A program made the position numbers and the translations under genes. 10,392 nt of DNA from Calditrichota bacterium. GTDB lineage: Bacteria; CLD3. The DNA lies in NCBI GenBank assembly GCA_008501735.1, contig QQUF01000038.1, positions 1-10,392 of the forward strand, given 5' to 3'. Under the pieces are notes generated by a model, which ran no database searches, was not told the DNA's origin, and saw only the letters and a list, made by a program, of their open reading frames with translations. The stretch's first letter is position 1, and every line of letters begins with the position of its first letter. Shown here one piece after another: positions 1 to 7,919 of this stretch.

Positions 1-1206
1 GTTAAAAGGATTAGGGAAGTTTTGTGCTAACTCGAATCTTTTTACAGATTGAGTTTTTACTTCAAAGAAAACAGTTTGAGCATTTTCTTCGTGTTTTGTT
101 TCGAGTCCGTTTGTTTCAACATCAGAAATTATGTAAGTGTAAAGTTCACCGGTAAGAAGTTCGGAGTTGTCAGTGAAGGAATAAAAAATTTGTGCAGAAG
201 TGTTTCCTTGTCCTTTAAGTTCTTTGTGGCTTTTGTGAGAAGCGATTTGGACAAAGTCATTTTCGCCAAGTTTTCTGTAAATATTAAAGCCTTCGTTTTC
301 AGTTTCCGAAGCAGTTGACCAATTTAGTTGAATTGAGTTTTCAATTTGACGAGCTGAAAAAGAATTTAATTCTACCGAAAGTGGTGCATCTGCTATGTCA
401 AGTGCCATTTCAGTTATTAGTCCACCAATAAAAATATCTTCAATATTCGACCCATCTAAATTTGCACGCTTTATTCTATCATTATCTATAAAATAAATTT
501 TTGAACTTACTAAATCTAACTCAATCCCATAAGGTGATATTAACCCTGTTATTACGTCTTCAATATTTGAACCGTCTAAATTTGCTCGTTGAATCTTTTG
601 ACCATTAATACTCCAATATACTTTTGAACTTGCAATATCTAATGCAATTCCATAAGTATCTCCTGAGCTTGTAACTAAATCTTCAATATTTGAGCCATCT
701 AAGTCTGCTCTTTGAATTTTATCATTGCTACCTGACCAATATATTTTAGAGTTTGTTAAATCTAATGCAATTTTGTGTGGAAGAGATGAACCAGTAGAAA
801 TTAAATCTTCCACATTTGAACCGTCTAAGTTTGCTCTTTGAATTTTATTATTTCCAGAATTAGCCCAATAAATTTTAGAATTTGTTAAATCTAATTCAAG
901 CCCAAAAGCAAGATTTAGTCCTGTAGTAACTAAATCTTCCACATTTGAGCCGTCTATGTCTGCTCTTTGAATTTTATTAGCATTGTAGTCAGCCCAATAC
1001 ATTTTAGAATTTGTTAAATCTAATGCAATTCCAGAAGGTCCATTTAAACCTGAAGAAATCAAATCCTCTACATTTGAACCGTCTAAATCGGAACGTTGGA
1101 TTTTGCTCATTCCGAAATCAGCCCAATAAATTTTTTGAGCAAAAGAATTTGAAACTAAAGCAAAACCTAAGCTAAGCGATAAGAGTGAGGTTGTAAGTTT
1201 GTTCAT
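1..1206 (-). CDS. Secreted YWTD-repeat beta-propeller protein with Fn3-like domain and T9SS sorting signal (3' end outside window)
   Basis: This is 402 codons read from ATG at 1206, open at the left edge. Residues 1-23 are a Sec signal peptide (MNKLTTSLLSLSLGFALVSNSFA, cut before Gln24). Residues 26-272 hold six repeats starting at about 26, 69, 112, 155, 196 and 237. Each has the pattern [IMV]YW...KIQRA(D/N)LDGSN(V/I)EDL...ALDL..SK, the YWTD (LDL-receptor class B) signature; six copies make one complete six-bladed propeller. Residues 276-386 resemble the Fn3-like domain that often precedes T9SS tails. The last visible residues (391-402, FELAQNFPNPFN) are the start of a type A T9SS sorting domain, so about 75 residues should follow outside the window. 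AAGGA (1216-1220) sits 9 bases before the ATG. The gene follows the sigma-54 activator on the same strand after a palindrome-rich gap. The likely role is an exported, surface-attached or released binding protein; ligand unknown. No catalytic motif is visible. Confidence 0.9.
   Translation of the reverse strand, partial: MNKLTTSLLSLSLGFALVSNSFAQKIYWADFGMSKIQRSDLDGSNVEDLISSGLNGPSGIALDLTNSKMYWADYNANKIQRADIDGSNVEDLVTTGLNLAFGLELDLTNSKIYWANSGNNKIQRANLDGSNVEDLISTGSSLPHKIALDLTNSKIYWSGSNDKIQRADLDGSNIEDLVTSSGDTYGIALDIASSKVYWSINGQKIQRANLDGSNIEDVITGLISPYGIELDLVSSKIYFIDNDRIKRANLDGSNIEDIFIGGLITEMALDIADAPLSVELNSFSARQIENSIQLNWSTASETENEGFNIYRKLGENDFVQIASHKSHKELKGQGNTSAQIFYSFTDNSELLTGELYTYIISDVETNGLETKHEENAQTVFFEVKTQSVKRFELAQNFPNPFN
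391..1131 (-). repeat. Six tandem YWTD-blade coding repeats
   Basis: There are six in-frame units of about 129, 129, 129, 123, 123 and 108 bases, each coding one propeller blade. At the DNA level the stretches coding DLTNSK, KIQRA and LDGSN are almost the same between units, with differences mainly in the loop between blades. The first three or four units are most alike and the sixth (YF instead of YW) is most diverged. This is consistent with internal duplication, and the later units look older or less constrained. Confidence 0.85.
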
Positions 1207-1256
1207 TGTTTTGTTTCCTTTTTGAAATGAGTTTGTTGTTTTACTGCTTAGTAATA

Positions 1257-1272
1257 CTCAAACTCAATGCCA
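1257..1272 (-). promoter_or_regulatory. Candidate sigma-54 (-24/-12) promoter for the YWTD propeller gene
   Basis: On the minus strand the sequence reads TGGCATTGAGTTTGAG. Against the sigma-54 consensus TGGCACG-N4-TTGCW it has the full TGGCA at -24. It also has TTG of the -12 element, with exactly 10 bases between the GG and the -12 G; the usual following C is A. The predicted start is near 1246, giving a leader of about 40 bases before the ATG at 1206. Support comes from the sigma-54 activator gene immediately upstream and three palindromes at activator distances. The match is imperfect and was found by eye. Confidence 0.55.
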
Positions 1273-1351
1273 AAAAGGATTTTGTGCTTTTAAATATTTC
1301 AATTTAAAAGGTTTACAGAAAATACTTTGTTGAAGTTGTTTCTTTGTAGTC

Positions 1352-1366
1352 GTTACAAATTGTAAC
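1352..1366. promoter_or_regulatory. Palindrome 1 (proximal), putative upstream activator site
   Basis: GTTACAAATTGTAAC is a perfect inverted repeat with 7-base arms around a central A (1359). Its centre is about 113 bases upstream of the start predicted from the -24/-12 element, a usual distance for sigma-54 activator sites. The same core recurs twice more in this gap and was not found elsewhere in the window. Confidence 0.65.
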
Positions 1367-1416
1367 AGGTATAAAATAGAAAGAGATGAAGTTGTTAAAA
1401 ATATTGGACTTAGGTC

Positions 1417-1437
1417 TGTGTTACAAATTGTAACACA
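1417..1437. promoter_or_regulatory. Palindrome 2 (middle, longest), putative upstream activator site
   Basis: This has the same 15-base core as palindrome 1, extended by TGT/ACA on the two sides into a perfect 21-base inverted repeat with 10-base arms around a central A (1427). It is the best copy and may be the highest-affinity site. Its centre is 68 bases from palindrome 1, about 181 bases upstream of the predicted start. Confidence 0.68.
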
Positions 1438-1479
1438 ATTAGTTTTACAGGGCTTAAATTGGATTTTATTGAAAAACTA

Positions 1480-1498
1480 ATTTCTGAAAATCAGAAAT
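1480..1498 (-). terminator. Possible weak terminator hairpin after the regulator gene
   Basis: ATTTCTGA and TCAGAAAT form an 8-base stem with a 3-base loop. On the minus strand it is followed by TTAGTTTTTC. It lies 22 bases past the regulator's stop codon, between palindromes 2 and 3. The stem is AT-rich and the T-run is interrupted, so termination would be inefficient. It could instead be incidental. Confidence 0.3.
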
Positions 1499-1499
1499 A

Positions 1500-1516
1500 T
1501 GTTACAATTTGTAACA
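1500..1516. promoter_or_regulatory. Palindrome 3 (distal), abutting the regulator stop codon
   Basis: TGTTACAATTTGTAACA is a perfect 17-base inverted repeat with 8-base arms around a central T (1508). It starts four bases beyond the stop codon of the regulator gene. It has the same core as the other two sites, with the central base complemented, and its centre is 81 bases from palindrome 2. Confidence 0.62.
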
Positions 1517-1520
1517 GTTC

Positions 1521-4500
1521 TCAAAATTTAATTCTGTCTAAAATTCGGTGAACTTGTGTCCTTGAAATACCTAATTTTTTTGCAACTTTAGATTTGTTCC
1601 CACCACAATCTTCTAACACTTTTGCAAAGATTGCTTTTTCTACAAGTGAAATTTTGTCCATTAAAGTCTCACCTTCAAAAAGTGTGAGAAGTTGTTTGAC
1701 TTCCTCAAATGAAAAATTCTCAGTTCTATCAAAAATATTTTCTTGAGCTTTTTCCTCTTTTTTCAAATTTGGTAAACTTAGATTTTCTAATCCAATTGCT
1801 CTGTTTTCTTTACATTCGACCGCTGCTTTGATAATTACATTTTGTAACTCGCGAACATTCCCTTTCCAAAAATATTCTGAAAAAATATTTAAAACTTCAT
1901 CGGAAAACCCGTTAATCTTTTTCCCGTAATCAGAATTAAATTTGTTCAAAATATGAAATGCCAAAAGTGGAATATCTTGGGTTCGTTCTCTTAAAGGAGG
2001 AATTGTAATTTTCAAAACATCCAATCGGTGCAATAAATCTTCTCTAAAATTTCCATTTGAAACTTCCTGCTCCAAATCCTTGTGTGTTGCAATTAGGATT
2101 CTTACATTCACAGATTTTGATTTCTCTGAGCCGATTACACGTAATTTTCTTTCTTGAATAACTCGCAAAATTTTTGCTTGGTTGTCCAAACTCAAATCAC
2201 CGATTTCGTCTAACAAAAGTGTACCATTTTCCGCTAACTCAAACACTCCTTTTTTGTCAAAAGTTGCTCCTGTAAAAGCTCCTTTCTTGTGTCCGAAAAG
2301 CTCACTTTCTGCTAAGTCTTTTGGAATTGCCGAACAGTTTATGGCAACAAAAGGGTTGTTTCTTCTCGGCGAAAATTTGTGGAGTGCATTTGCAACGAGT
2401 TCCTTTCCTGTTCCCGTTTCACCAAAAATGTAAACAGGAAAATTATAAGAAGCTGCATTTTCAATCTCTTCATAAACCTCTTTCATTTTGAGGCTGTTAC
2501 CAACAAAAATTCCCAATTCACGAATTTGAGATTCGATTTTTTGGTGAAGAGATTCCTTTTGTTTTTGAATAATTGGCAGTAAAATTTTTCCGAATTCTTC
2601 TACTTTTTTTGCATCGGATTTTTCAAAAACACCTTGTTTGGGATTTGTTCTATCTAAGTAAATTGCTCCGATAACTTCATTGTTTACTTTTAACGGAATA
2701 GAGATTACTGACAGAAAAATCTTTCCGACAATGCTTTCATTTCCACTAAATTTTTCGTTCTCTAAAGCATTTTCAACTAAAATTGGTTTTCCAAATTGGA
2801 CTGTCTCATTAAGAATTGACTTACTAAAATCTATTTCAACATCTTTGAAGGACGGTGAAAAAGAACAAGGTTCAAGTTTTCCCGTTGATTTGTTTTTTAG
2901 AATTATGAAACAGTTATCAGATTTAGTTTCTGCGATTAAGTATTCAATTGTTTCGTTCAAGACTGACTCAGGTTCCATCAAAGGAATTAGGGAATTGAGC
3001 AAACCCGATTGAAATATTCCAGACTTATTTTTGAGACTTTCTAAAATTTCAAGACGTTCTTTAAGGACAAAAGACTCATCATTTTTGATAAGATTTTTAT
3101 GAAGTTCAATTGCTTTTTGTCGGAAATCTTCAAATTTGATTTTTTTACCGGGAAGCAAAGTTAGGTTTTCATTTTTTGAGTAAAGATTACAAAATTCAAA
3201 ATACTCTTCAGCAAGTCGGGTTTGGTTTTCTTCTTTTTCTATTAATTTTAACAGACCTTCTAAAGAGCTTTTTTGCAAACCTAAATTAAAATCAATTTTA
3301 TGAGACAAAATTTTTGTCTTGAAAAGTGTTGGTTTATCATTACACTTTTGTGCAATTATTTTTGCTTCTTTATTAATTTTTTTCGCTTCGTTAAAATCGT
3401 AGATTTCAAAAACAGAATTAGCTTTTAAATAAAGGATTCCACCTAAAGTCGGGTCGTTTTGACGGAATGAAATTGATTTGTCCCAAAATTCAATCGCTTC
3501 TTTGAATCTCTTTTGGGCATGCAGAATTATTGCACTGTTTTTGTAAAAAACTCCGTGATTTTTAAACTCTTCAATATTTTCATTTAACTCGAATAATTCT
3601 TGGTTGTATTTATCGCTTTCGTCAAGTTTTCCAAGAACGCAATATATCAAACAAAGATTGTTACAACAATTAATCAACCAATTTCGATAATTTAATTTAT
3701 GAGCTAAGTTGTAAGCTATTTTGAGAAAATGAATCGATTTTGAAAATTGGTTTTCACCGTAATAAATATTACTTATTCCAATTGTGCTATGGATAATTCC
3801 ATAATTATTACCAATTTCTTCTGAATTTTTAAAACTTATTTCGAAGATTTCTAAGGCTTCTTGCGGTTTTCCAAGATTCCTTAAAAGTGTTCCTTTTGTA
3901 GAGTAGCATAAATTTAAATAATCCAAGTCATTTGTTTCTTTGGAAAGTTTCAAACATTTATCCAAGAAATGAAAAGCTTTTTCATAATTTTCCTCTTCTA
4001 CATAATTTCTAATTAGTGTGTAATAAATTTCTTTTTTTAAACCTTTGTCGTTTAGTTTTTCAGCGATTTTAAGAGCATTTTCAAATGCTTCAATTGCTTT
4101 AAAAGATTCACATTTGGTCGTATAGTATTTTCCAATTTGAATTTGTGTTTCAGAAATTTTATGTAAAACTTCGAATTTTTTATAAATCTCTAATGCCTTT
4201 TCTAAGTCAATAAACCCTTCTTCCAAAACCAAATTATGAATTTTGAGTTTAGCTCTTGCTAAGAAAGTATCAGCAATTAATTTTTTATCATCAATTTTCA
4301 AAGCTAATTTGTGTGCGTTGAGAATTACTTTTAGTGCTTCATCAATATCACCAATCCGTTCTAAAAACGAAGCTTTTAAAATGTTAAACTCGACTAACTT
4401 TACCTCACTTTTTTCAAACTCAATTACTTTTGAAATAAAATTTATTGCATCTGAAGTTGCAAAATTTTCAAATGCTGTCTCACTTGCAAGAAGGTTGTAT

Positions 4501-6587
4501 TTCTTAGCTTTGTTGATAATTTTTGCTTCAAAAAAATGGTGTGCGAGTTCAGGAATTATTGATTCAGAGTAATTGCTTTCTAAATTTTCGGCAATGATTT
4601 TATGTAATTTTACTTTTTGGCTTTGAGAAATTGAAATCTCTAAAGTCTCCTTAACGGAGTCGTGATAAAAGCTGAATAAACCACTTTTTTCCGAAACATA
4701 ATTTTCAAAATTGGCATTTTTTAGAACTTCTGCAATTTTGTTAGATGACAATTCGGGGAAAAATGATTTGATAAATTCAACGGTAAAAGGTCTTTTAAAA
4801 AGAGATGCAATTTGTAAAATTTTCTTTGAATCACGTTTCAAGGACTTAATTCTTTCGAAAAGAACTGAGTGAATGCTTTGTGGAAGATTTTCAGAAATTA
4901 ATTTAGTTTCATCAAAACGCCATTCATTTGATTTCTTAAAAAGAATCCCATTTTGTAAAAAATGAAACATCAATTCTTGAATAAAAAGCGGATTCCCATT
5001 GGTTTTTTTCAGAAACATTTCTGCAATATTTTTTTCAATCGGGTCAACTTTGCCTAACATTGAACTCACCAAATTTTTAATCTGTTCTAAGTTCAAGTCC
5101 TCAAGCTGAATTTTTTCAAAACCTTCTAAATTTTTCGAGAAATTCGAGTTTTCAAATTCATTTTTGCGAACCGTTCCGGCAATAAAAACCTTTTTATCGG
5201 CAAAATAATTTTGTGCATACTTTATCCAATTGACACTTTCATTTTCACTCCATTGGACATCGTCAAAGAATAAAACCAAAGTTTTCCCGTCAGAGAGTTT
5301 TTCGAGCAATTTGCATAAACTTTCGTAAAGCCTTTGTAACACTTCGTTTTCTGCTAATTTGGTAGTTTGAGGCAATTTTTTGAAAAACCTGTAGTTTGCA
5401 ATTTGCGGTAGAATGATTTGAAAATCCCTTCCAAATTTCCCCACAAATTCAATTTTTTCAGAATCTGAGAAATTTTCTAATTCTTCCAAACAGCCGTTTA
5501 AAATACTTTTCAGTCCATCAAAACTCTGTGAATTTGGCTGAGCTTTCGTTTGCAAATAAAATGTGTCTTTAAAGTTGAGTGCTGTTGCAAATTCTTTCCA
5601 AAGTTTAGATTTTCCACTTCCCGAATTACCGCCAATCAAAGCAAACTGAAATTTCCCTGATTGGGCTTTTGAATAAATTTTTTGCAATTTTTGTAATTCT
5701 TCCTCTCTTCCGATAAATTCGGGAAAAAGAAGAAAATCATCAATTGACGTTCCTTTTCGAGTTTTTGAATTTTGTAAGAAATTTGTCAAAGATTCGGTTA
5801 CTGCTTTTGCAGAAGCAAATCTTTCATTTGGATTTTTCGACAATAATTTTTTAACAATATCTTCAATCTCAAAAGGAATTTCGGAATTGTAGTAAGAAGG
5901 CGAAGTTAAAGGACTTCTCAAATGCCCTAAAATAATTGAAGTTATTGATTCTCCGTCAAAAGGAAGTCTGCCTGTGAGCAATTTGTAAAAAATAATTCCA
6001 AGAGAATAAAGGTCGCTTCTGTGGTCAATTTTTGCAGAATTTTGACACTGCTCCGGCGAAGAATACTTTGCAGTTCCAAGGAAAGCTCCCGAAGCTGTGA
6101 GAGTGGAGGAATCGTCAAGTTTCACTAAATCAAAGTCTGTAATTTTGATTTGACCTTCTTTTGTTTCGAGAATGTTTGCAGGTTTCAAATCCCTGTTAAT
6201 AATTCCTCTCGAATGAAGTGCTTCTAATCCATTTGCAATTTGAATGATTTTTGAGATTTTTTCTTGTAGGGAACAAAAATTTTTGTTCCCTACAGAATTA
6301 TTTTTTTCACTAGACGCAAGATTTTGCGTCTCTACGGAATCTACAAATTCCATCACAAAACCAATTTGGTCTTTTTCTTCGTACCACTCAATCATTTTTA
6401 CACAATTTGGGTGTGAGACTTTTTGTGCAGTTTCAAAACCTCGTTTGATTCTTTTAATTTCTTTTGGAGTTTTGTAATTCTCGTGAATGAGTTTTAGTGC
6501 GTAGAATTCACCGTTAGTGGATTTTTGAATTTTGTAAACTGTACCAAAAGTTCCAGATGCGATTTTGGAAATGATTTTGTAGGGCAT
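1521..6587 (-). CDS. Ser/Thr kinase - ATPase - TPR - GAF - sigma-54-dependent transcriptional activator (Fis-type HTH)
   Basis: 1688 residues with no signal peptide, so cytoplasmic. Residues 1-270 are a protein kinase: glycine loop SGTFGTVY (11-18), Lys32, NRDLKPAN catalytic loop with Asp133, DFD (151-153), SPE (177-179). Residues 290-545 are an AAA_16-type ATPase with Walker A GNSGSGKS (320-327) and Walker B LVLFFDDVQW (437-446). Residues 690-1170 are helical TPR-like repeats. Residues 1195-1340 are a GAF domain. Residues 1358-1590 are the sigma-54 activator AAA+ domain: GETGTGKE (1389-1396), GAFTGA (1436-1441), LLLDE (1457-1461), FREDLLHRL with arginine fingers (1514-1522), GNVRELQN (1576-1583). 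Residues 1649-1688 are a Fis-type helix-turn-helix. The intact GAFTGA loop predicts a true sigma-54 activator. Kinase-ATPase-TPR-GAF fusions are known in other bacteria; putting the activator module on the end makes a one-protein signalling chain. The start at 6587 begins just before the kinase glycine loop and has a weak upstream GAGA. It is probably the regulator of the propeller gene downstream. Confidence 0.93.
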   Translation of the reverse strand: MPYKIISKIASGTFGTVYKIQKSTNGEFYALKLIHENYKTPKEIKRIKRGFETAQKVSHPNCVKMIEWYEEKDQIGFVMEFVDSVETQNLASSEKNNSVGNKNFCSLQEKISKIIQIANGLEALHSRGIINRDLKPANILETKEGQIKITDFDLVKLDDSSTLTASGAFLGTAKYSSPEQCQNSAKIDHRSDLYSLGIIFYKLLTGRLPFDGESITSIILGHLRSPLTSPSYYNSEIPFEIEDIVKKLLSKNPNERFASAKAVTESLTNFLQNSKTRKGTSIDDFLLFPEFIGREEELQKLQKIYSKAQSGKFQFALIGGNSGSGKSKLWKEFATALNFKDTFYLQTKAQPNSQSFDGLKSILNGCLEELENFSDSEKIEFVGKFGRDFQIILPQIANYRFFKKLPQTTKLAENEVLQRLYESLCKLLEKLSDGKTLVLFFDDVQWSENESVNWIKYAQNYFADKKVFIAGTVRKNEFENSNFSKNLEGFEKIQLEDLNLEQIKNLVSSMLGKVDPIEKNIAEMFLKKTNGNPLFIQELMFHFLQNGILFKKSNEWRFDETKLISENLPQSIHSVLFERIKSLKRDSKKILQIASLFKRPFTVEFIKSFFPELSSNKIAEVLKNANFENYVSEKSGLFSFYHDSVKETLEISISQSQKVKLHKIIAENLESNYSESIIPELAHHFFEAKIINKAKKYNLLASETAFENFATSDAINFISKVIEFEKSEVKLVEFNILKASFLERIGDIDEALKVILNAHKLALKIDDKKLIADTFLARAKLKIHNLVLEEGFIDLEKALEIYKKFEVLHKISETQIQIGKYYTTKCESFKAIEAFENALKIAEKLNDKGLKKEIYYTLIRNYVEEENYEKAFHFLDKCLKLSKETNDLDYLNLCYSTKGTLLRNLGKPQEALEIFEISFKNSEEIGNNYGIIHSTIGISNIYYGENQFSKSIHFLKIAYNLAHKLNYRNWLINCCNNLCLIYCVLGKLDESDKYNQELFELNENIEEFKNHGVFYKNSAIILHAQKRFKEAIEFWDKSISFRQNDPTLGGILYLKANSVFEIYDFNEAKKINKEAKIIAQKCNDKPTLFKTKILSHKIDFNLGLQKSSLEGLLKLIEKEENQTRLAEEYFEFCNLYSKNENLTLLPGKKIKFEDFRQKAIELHKNLIKNDESFVLKERLEILESLKNKSGIFQSGLLNSLIPLMEPESVLNETIEYLIAETKSDNCFIILKNKSTGKLEPCSFSPSFKDVEIDFSKSILNETVQFGKPILVENALENEKFSGNESIVGKIFLSVISIPLKVNNEVIGAIYLDRTNPKQGVFEKSDAKKVEEFGKILLPIIQKQKESLHQKIESQIRELGIFVGNSLKMKEVYEEIENAASYNFPVYIFGETGTGKELVANALHKFSPRRNNPFVAINCSAIPKDLAESELFGHKKGAFTGATFDKKGVFELAENGTLLLDEIGDLSLDNQAKILRVIQERKLRVIGSEKSKSVNVRILIATHKDLEQEVSNGNFREDLLHRLDVLKITIPPLRERTQDIPLLAFHILNKFNSDYGKKINGFSDEVLNIFSEYFWKGNVRELQNVIIKAAVECKENRAIGLENLSLPNLKKEEKAQENIFDRTENFSFEEVKQLLTLFEGETLMDKISLVEKAIFAKVLEDCGGNKSKVAKKLGISRTQVHRILDRIKF
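6265..6294. repeat. Perfect 30-base palindromic element inside the kinase coding region
   Basis: TGTAGGGAACAAAAA is followed directly by its exact reverse complement. It is read in frame as residues 98-108 (SVGNKNFCSLQ) of the kinase domain, between the hinge strand and helix E. A perfect palindrome of this length in coding DNA is unlikely by selection on protein sequence. It resembles the short dispersed palindromic repeats found in many bacterial genomes. Confidence 0.8.
6310..6335. repeat. Second palindromic element (degraded) inside the kinase coding region
   Basis: On the minus strand this reads GTAGAGACGCAA-AATC-TTGCGTCTAG, an inverted repeat (inner arms AGACGCAA/TTGCGTCT at 6312-6331). 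One outer arm has lost two bases and has a substitution. Both elements have CTAC ends followed by [AG]GAAT (CTACAGAAT at 6290-6298, CTACGGAAT at 6332-6340), so they look like members of one family with different cores. It codes residues 85-93 (VETQNLASS) of the regulator. Confidence 0.7.
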
Positions 6588-6740: not shown

Positions 6741-7919
6741 TTGTCAAATAAATTCAAATCGGTTTTACGTAAAGTTTCTAAAAAGATTTTTGGAAATACT
6801 GAAGAGGAAATTTCTGATTTAATGCCAAGCGTTAAAGTATTTCAAGGAATTGAAAAATCGAATTCAAATGAAATTACGATTGGTTACGTTGGAAATGACA
6901 TTCAGTACGAAAATTATATTTTGGAACTAACCTTTAGTAGCGAACCTAAAATTCTATTTAATAAAAAACAGCCACTCGAAAATGTTTCTGAAATGCTGAA
7001 ATCTAATTTTGAAAACTTGTCCTTAATTTATTTTGAAAGTGATAGGGTAGAGTTAGAAGAGTTTTGGAAAGGAAAGAAAGGAATAAAATTTCCGCGATGG
7101 ATTGAATGCACAATGGACATTTCGGATTCGTTTGAAAACCTTTGCAAGAAAAAAGCTTTCAAAAATTTTATTCGCAAAATTAACCAAAATAATTACGAAA
7201 CTGAATACTCTAACTCTGATGAAAATAGAGACGATTTTTATTACAATTTTTACAAACCTTACTTAGCTAAAAATTATGGTGCAACTGCTTACTTCATTGC
7301 ATATAATTATTTCAATAGTATGAAAGACCATACGGAATTACTACTTTTAAAAAAAGAAGGCGTAACCGTTGGAATGGTTTTGATAGAATATTTGGAAGAA
7401 TTTGCTCACTTTGCTTATATGGGATTTAAAGATGGAGATGAAACTTATGTTCGTGAAGGTGCAACAAGTGGTTTATATTTTTACTCAATTCAAAGAGCTC
7501 AAGAAAAAGGCTTCAAATATTTTTGTTTTGGACCTTCAAAGTCATTTCTAAAAGATGGTGTTCTTAGGTTCAAAGTTGAAAAATCTTGTTTCATCGCTGA
7601 CAAAACATTCACTCCTGACGAAAACATATTTTTAGAATTTGTAAAGGAAACAGAAGCCTCGAAAAATTTCCTCGTAGCAAACCCTTTTGTTTTTTATCCA
7701 ATTGAAAGAAAAAGAGAAATCATTATTTTCGTTCCAAGTTCCGATAATTTTTCTGTTGAAAATGCAGTCAAAATGATAAAATCCTACAAACTTGACGAAG
7801 GAATTGAAAATTGGAATTTGGTTTTTTGGGAAAATCCAATTTTAAAAGATGAAGATTTTAAAGACACAAAATACGAGAACAGAGTAAAAATCAGAAACCT
7901 TCAAGAAGTTCTGAGCTAA
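6741..7919 (+). CDS. GNAT / FemAB-like acyltransferase, substrate unknown
   Basis: 392 residues, cytoplasmic, with no signal peptide or membrane segment. The start is TTG at 6741: a GGAG site (6730-6733) stands 7 bases upstream and no in-frame ATG or GTG comes earlier. Residues 115-190 (PRWIECTMDIS, FENLCKKKAFKNFIRKINQNNYE, DDFYYNFYKPYLAKNYG) look like the helical part of FemAB/BioF2-like acyltransferases. Residues 198-285 (ELLLLKKEGVTVGMVLIEY, FAHFAYMGF, GLYFYSIQRAQEKGFKYFCFGPSKSF) resemble the core of the GNAT fold, including the strand-helix unit that normally holds acyl-CoA or aminoacyl-tRNA. Relatives modify peptidoglycan, polysaccharide or lipid precursors. The N-terminal 110 and C-terminal 90 residues match nothing I recognise. 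It is transcribed divergently from the kinase activator with 153 bases between, and it converges on the Asp-box gene. A functional link to the regulator is only inferred from position. Confidence 0.6.
   Translation: MSNKFKSVLRKVSKKIFGNTEEEISDLMPSVKVFQGIEKSNSNEITIGYVGNDIQYENYILELTFSSEPKILFNKKQPLENVSEMLKSNFENLSLIYFESDRVELEEFWKGKKGIKFPRWIECTMDISDSFENLCKKKAFKNFIRKINQNNYETEYSNSDENRDDFYYNFYKPYLAKNYGATAYFIAYNYFNSMKDHTELLLLKKEGVTVGMVLIEYLEEFAHFAYMGFKDGDETYVREGATSGLYFYSIQRAQEKGFKYFCFGPSKSFLKDGVLRFKVEKSCFIADKTFTPDENIFLEFVKETEASKNFLVANPFVFYPIERKREIIIFVPSSDNFSVENAVKMIKSYKLDEGIENWNLVFWENPILKDEDFKDTKYENRVKIRNLQEVLS

Follow-up and report, generated by a model that had tools for sequence, protein, structure and literature searches.

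Three palindromes before a secreted propeller gene are very probably private enhancer sites of the neighbouring kinase-type sigma-54 activator in a Calditrichota bacterium

Results

The window, that is, the whole stretch of 10,392 nucleotides analysed here, contains three exact copies of the 15-mer GTTACAA-W-TTGTAAC in region 1207-1520 (centres 1359, 1427 and 1508), and these are very probably private docking sites of the kinase-type activator encoded next to them. Comparison with paralogous loci of the same genome makes it highly likely that each of these regulators is an enhancer-binding activator dedicated to a surface-protein operon of its own, and that region 1207-1520 serves as both enhancer and promoter for a secreted propeller gene. 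The first-pass annotation had taken the palindromes for binding sites of the adjacent activator and the propeller for its target, and this assignment is supported by the confinement of the palindromes, the presence of rpoN, the geometry of a sister cassette (C24a) and the tracking of the helix-turn-helix (HTH) domain by the palindromes. Its term "complete signal-to-surface module" is fair as a description of the architecture. The features of the locus are as follows.

1..1206, minus strand: secreted YWTD propeller (LDL-receptor class B), truncated at its C-terminal FPNPFN tail where contig C5 begins
1257..1274, minus strand: -24/-12 (sigma-54) promoter element, TTTGGCATTGAGTTTGAG, GG-N10-G; expected mRNA start near 1246-1247
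1352..1366, no strand: palindrome 1, the proximal copy, GTTACAAATTGTAAC; centred 84 bp upstream of the -24 element
1417..1437 (15-mer 1420-1434), no strand: palindrome 2, TGTGTTACAAATTGTAACACA, perfect over 21 bases; centred 152 bp upstream of the -24 element
1501..1515, no strand: palindrome 3, the distal copy, GTTACAATTTGTAAC; centred 233 bp upstream of the -24 element
1521..6587, minus strand: regulator of 1688 aa, with kinase, AAA_16, TPR, GAF, sigma-54 AAA+ and Fis-type HTH parts
1545..1646, minus strand: Fis-type HTH (HTH_8), predicted to be the ligand of the three palindromes (PF02954, 1.6e-09, residues 1648-1681)
2007..2504, minus strand: sigma-54-interacting AAA+ domain with GAFTGA (PF00158, 8.5e-68; Walker A GETGTGKE)
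2604..2975, minus strand: GAF domain
3453..4379, minus strand: TPR region (approximate)
5226..5720, minus strand: AAA_16 ATPase domain (STAND-like), Walker A GNSGSGKS
5796..6581, minus strand: Ser/Thr protein kinase domain, with NRD for HRD and DFD for DFG

Palindromes and predicted sigma-54 promoter of the propeller gene

All three palindromes lie where the first-pass annotation had placed them, and the copy that it had seen extended to 21 perfect bases is the middle one. Relative to the expected mRNA start they are found at about -112, -180 and -261, the distal copy lying 5 bp past the stop codon of the regulator. Seven matches to the 15-mer were found in the window at up to three mismatches, compared to 0.73 expected from shuffled sequence. 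In the whole genome (4,144,650 bases), the only copies with no or one mismatch are these three palindromes; scatter across the genome, which the first-pass annotation had named as evidence against its reading, was not seen. Copies with two mismatches, including one at 1834-1848, were rejected as chance matches because their 47 further genome places are as frequent as those of a reversed-pattern control (45).

The promoter element reads from 1274 down to 1257, with GG at 1271-1270, ten bases, and G at 1259; compared to GG-N10-G(C) its final base is A instead of C, and the repeated sites lie upstream of it. The GG-N10-G spacing given in the first-pass annotation was thus right, while its TGGCA-N8-TTG has to be corrected to TGGCA-N6-TTG. 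Strict -24/-12 matches number 32 genome-wide, this one included, and about a third of them belong to cassettes of a regulator and its cargo genes. A single rpoN gene is present in the genome; its absence would have spoken against sigma-54 control.

The regulator and its cargo

The regulator retains an intact GAFTGA and two intact Walker A motifs. It has the AAA+ domain with Walker A and GAFTGA and the Fis-type HTH of sigma-54 enhancer-binding proteins; a sigma-54 activator of this type with GAFTGA had been noted from the first reading. It fell short of the equivalog cut-offs of all the named activators compared, NorR, NifA, NtrC and the PEP-CTERM response regulator (best NorR score 337.8 bits against a cut-off of 476; TIGR02915, 293.1 against 502.6). 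A single-protein scan of named genomes gave no matches, and the matches of a profile scan were for the most part large ATPases of other kinds. In the 48 loci that could be read, a kinase and a sigma-54 activator in one frame were found in the sister genus only, by a motif-based and non-exhaustive search. Divergent to the regulator, the plus-strand frame at 6741-7919 shows a weak FemAB/XrtA-associated likeness (TIGR03019, far under the cut-off).

Since the start of contig C5 cuts the propeller gene, its T9SS tail can be read only to FPNPFN. Intact paralogs of this propeller carry complete T9SS tails, and paralogous cargo proteins match the T9SS sorting domain TIGR04183.

Sister cassettes in the same genome

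The genome encodes many paralogs of the regulator, of which ten or more are either complete or truncated by nothing but contig ends. The layout recurs: a regulator, 276-933 bases, and then at least one secreted T9SS-tailed protein of the YWTD or FG-GAP kind. Most paralogous regulators adjoin such secreted genes with a -24/-12 element and a multi-copy palindrome of their own, some cassettes stand in tandem, and almost every YWTD gene in the genome has surroundings of this type (exceptions at C52:159k and C1:86k). The -24/-12 element precedes the first cargo gene and is mostly TTTGGCA-N6-TTG. Second cargo genes follow 36-137 bases behind the first and have no -24/-12 element of their own; they look like operon members.

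Two observations on this layout count against dedicated activators. Next to C32, C57 and several other regulators there is no such cargo, and at C50 the enhancer is found ahead of the gene on the regulator's upstream side, which means that regulator and target do not always adjoin on the same side. Several paralogs (C24b, C47, C13, C1, C55, C32) have GAFSGA or GSFSGA in place of GAFTGA, and the same activity should therefore not be assumed across the family. Many contigs, among them C1, C10, C12, C13, C23, C43 and C47, break off within kinase-activator genes; the number of cassettes is thus uncertain, and some halves may belong together.

Most cassettes have a palindrome of their own

The stretch before each -24 element was searched for dyads with base-composition weights and compared to 100 dinucleotide shuffles; the weighted score was used as the score without composition weights missed C24a and C38. 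The dyads detected were as follows.

C5 (window cassette): TGTTAC-N5-GTAACA, 3 copies, reached by 0/100 shuffles
C24a: TGTAAC-N5-GTTACA, 3 copies, degenerate, 0/100
C47: TAGTCA-N3-TGACTA, 4 copies, 0/100
C38: CGTAAC-N6-GTTACG, 3 copies, 0/100
C13: TGGCTC-N7-GAGCCA, 3 copies, 0/100
C1: TTAGGC-N5-GCCTAA, 3 copies, 0/100
C10: TGTACG-N6-CGTACA, 4 copies, 0/100
C47c: TGAGCC-N5, 2 copies, 0/100
C38b: TGTACT-N6-AGTACA, 2 copies, 0/100
C183 (sister genus): TGCCTT-N5-AAGGCA, 3 copies, 0/100
Cargo next to C50: GACACA-N3-TGTGTC, 3 copies, beats all 40 shuffles
C1:1589: GTAAGG-N4-CCTTAC, 3 copies, beats all 40 shuffles

The 33 control intergenic regions taken from these loci all scored below 22, compared to mostly 22-42 for the cassettes and 16.6-17.7 for C38b. 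The palindromes that were searched for genome-wide keep largely to their own cassettes. Exact genome copies of the C47 and C1 palindromes occur only in their own cassettes, and the C50 palindrome has its sole exact copy at home, along with two of its six copies with one mismatch. C24b and C55 also pass the shuffle test but are tentative; their sites lie across large inverted repeats, which may be terminators, and this counts against the enhancer reading. Also on the negative side, the weighted search gave no significant repeated palindrome for C48, C1b and the sister-genus C132, even though C48 and C132 have a -24/-12 element.

Several further sequences were noted in these loci. Behind regulator C24b, a perfect 64-base inverted repeat (L051:5634-5697) is terminator-like, and its arms contain the proposed sites. 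At C38:434-12319 (L077, L080, L054), five tandem T9SS genes each carry the same enhancer sites; all eight genome sites of the C38b palindrome at up to one mismatch lie before these five genes on contig C38, where spacings of 194 and 166 to the -24 element recur, as if gene and enhancer had been duplicated together under a single activator. Two YWTD genes are followed directly by a decayed regulator (L075:5209-6345, 3' part, with stops upstream), and the enhancer of these genes, TGTAAGG..CCTTACA, is similar to the enhancers of C10 and C38b, which are relatives of the decayed regulator by HTH. A dispersed element, aacgcttcgcttgaatt...ctcctcctt-N-aaggaggag, found in both orientations in intergenic sequence (L050 ~10730-10790 and L075 ~6440-6490), is REP-like and separate from the enhancers.

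Palindromes follow the HTH of the adjacent regulator

The first-pass annotation had suggested aligning this region in relatives that keep the regulator. The closest regulator paralog, C24a, retains three palindromes at 85, 153 and 233 from an equal -24/-12 element, compared to 84, 152 and 233 in C5; all three sites have changed from TGTTAC to TGTAAC, and the DNA between them has diverged. Across the cassettes, the more identical the HTHs, the more similar were the palindromes (r=0.49, permutation p=0.0013), whereas identity in GAF+AAA+ showed no such correlation (r=0.11, p=0.21); the partial correlation between palindrome and HTH was 0.48 (p=0.0017). Other forms of the test were weaker and in part not significant, which counts against the reading (r=0.13, p=0.12, mean rank p=0.03), and a further form gave r=0.34 (p=0.004) for the HTH and, when restricted to the recognition part, r=0.06 (p=0.34). 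The C13 and C1 regulators are nearest to each other by body (GAF 76%, AAA+ 62%), whereas their HTHs share only 35% and their palindromes differ; the nearest HTHs are those of C24b for C13 and C47 for C1, and the two palindromes lean likewise. By sequence, the regulators look like mosaics with apparent HTH exchanges. C1 and the sister-genus C132 regulator have a common HTH stretch, IDNKRLDRLL, and the same AGGC-N5-GCCT dyad, of which C132 has one good copy.

These comparisons bear on other explanations of the palindromes. An unlinked factor, such as a global repressor, might bind them while the neighbouring activator works elsewhere, and palindromes of 15-17 bp would suit many dimeric regulators. 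Since the palindrome differs in each sister cassette, however, a separate DNA-binding protein would be needed for each, whereas the adjacent HTH, which the palindromes track, is the only cassette-specific DNA-binding domain. No second copy of the palindrome lies near another gene in the genome either, and we regard an unlinked factor as improbable. It is very improbable that the sites were simply copied along in cassette duplication, their relation to the HTH reflecting shared ancestry and no present function. C5 and C24a are indeed homologous across the whole region, and the tandem cassettes would fit such a history, but copies within a cassette stay alike where flanking DNA has diverged, and regulators nearest by body (C13/C1 and C50/C1) have different palindromes, which follow the HTH. 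RNA hairpins (terminator or attenuator) of a regulator-propeller transcript are likewise very improbable, for although each palindrome can fold (-4.7 to -8.7 kcal/mol) and the 21-base copy scores weakly as a terminator-like site, though on the plus strand alone, the stems are rich in A+T, their loops have 3 bases and the transcribed strand lacks a terminator-like U-run, and the copies are symmetric and repeated with binding-site spacing, at distances to the -24/-12 element that are kept in a sister cassette.

Discussion

With the palindromes read as sites of the adjacent activator, region 1207-1520 would work as enhancer and promoter of the propeller gene. Regulator dimers would use their C-terminal Fis-type HTH to dock on the three palindromes, and a signal, if one exists, may be received by the kinase, ATPase, TPR or GAF parts, upon which the AAA+ ring would form. 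Through DNA looping, this ring would open sigma-54 polymerase at the -24/-12 element, with a start near 1247, and the secreted propeller would then be made. Across about ten sister cassettes, HTH and palindrome appear to have diverged together, which suggests that each activator serves only its own surface-protein operon and would be insulated from the others in the cell. We also lean towards a wider reading, in which about ten paralogous kinase-type activators with exchangeable HTHs and matching private enhancers form a repertoire for switching propeller operons independently.

Enhancer-binding proteins with distinct motifs and often neighbouring targets are known, with 37 in Desulfovibrio vulgaris (PMC4641369). 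As in the NtrC/NorR class, the regulators described here have a sigma-54 AAA+ domain with GAFTGA, a C-terminal Fis-type HTH and sites about 100 bp or more upstream of the -24/-12 element. Unlike the D. vulgaris set, they are paralogs from one expanded family, share a kinase-STAND-TPR-GAF front and have mostly secreted T9SS surface proteins as presumed targets. Sigma-54 control of sorting-tagged exoproteins is known from the PEP-CTERM/PrsK-PrsR system, in which one activator and one shared site serve many genes (PMC1569441, PMC9850573). Both arrangements place a sigma-54 promoter and activator site in large intergenic regions and have cargo with C-terminal sorting tails. In contrast to one shared site upstream of many genes, the palindromes here differ between cassettes, and many sister activators would each control their own operon through private sites; the sorting tail is that of T9SS, and no separate histidine kinase was seen. 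We found no description of the kinase-activator fusion or of sigma-54/T9SS/YWTD cassettes in the open-access literature. In the polysaccharide-utilisation loci of Bacteroidetes, many paralogous regulators also stand each beside their own surface-protein genes, although these are not known to be sigma-54-enhancer systems and their cargo are outer-membrane uptake systems instead of secreted propellers.

In this family, a kinase-STAND-TPR-GAF front is fused with a sigma-54 activator, and sigma-54 control is linked with surface proteins of the T9SS type. An unsettled question is how transcription factors avoid crosstalk after duplication; in this genome, about ten sister activators share body plan and promoter type but differ in HTHs and sites, with close pairs (TGTTAC and TGTAAC) and apparent HTH exchanges among them, and this makes the recognition code of the Fis-type HTH directly testable. 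If the repertoire reading is true, the family would be a natural series of insulated activator-enhancer pairs, and laboratory strains could be given such pairs as insulated switches of expression.
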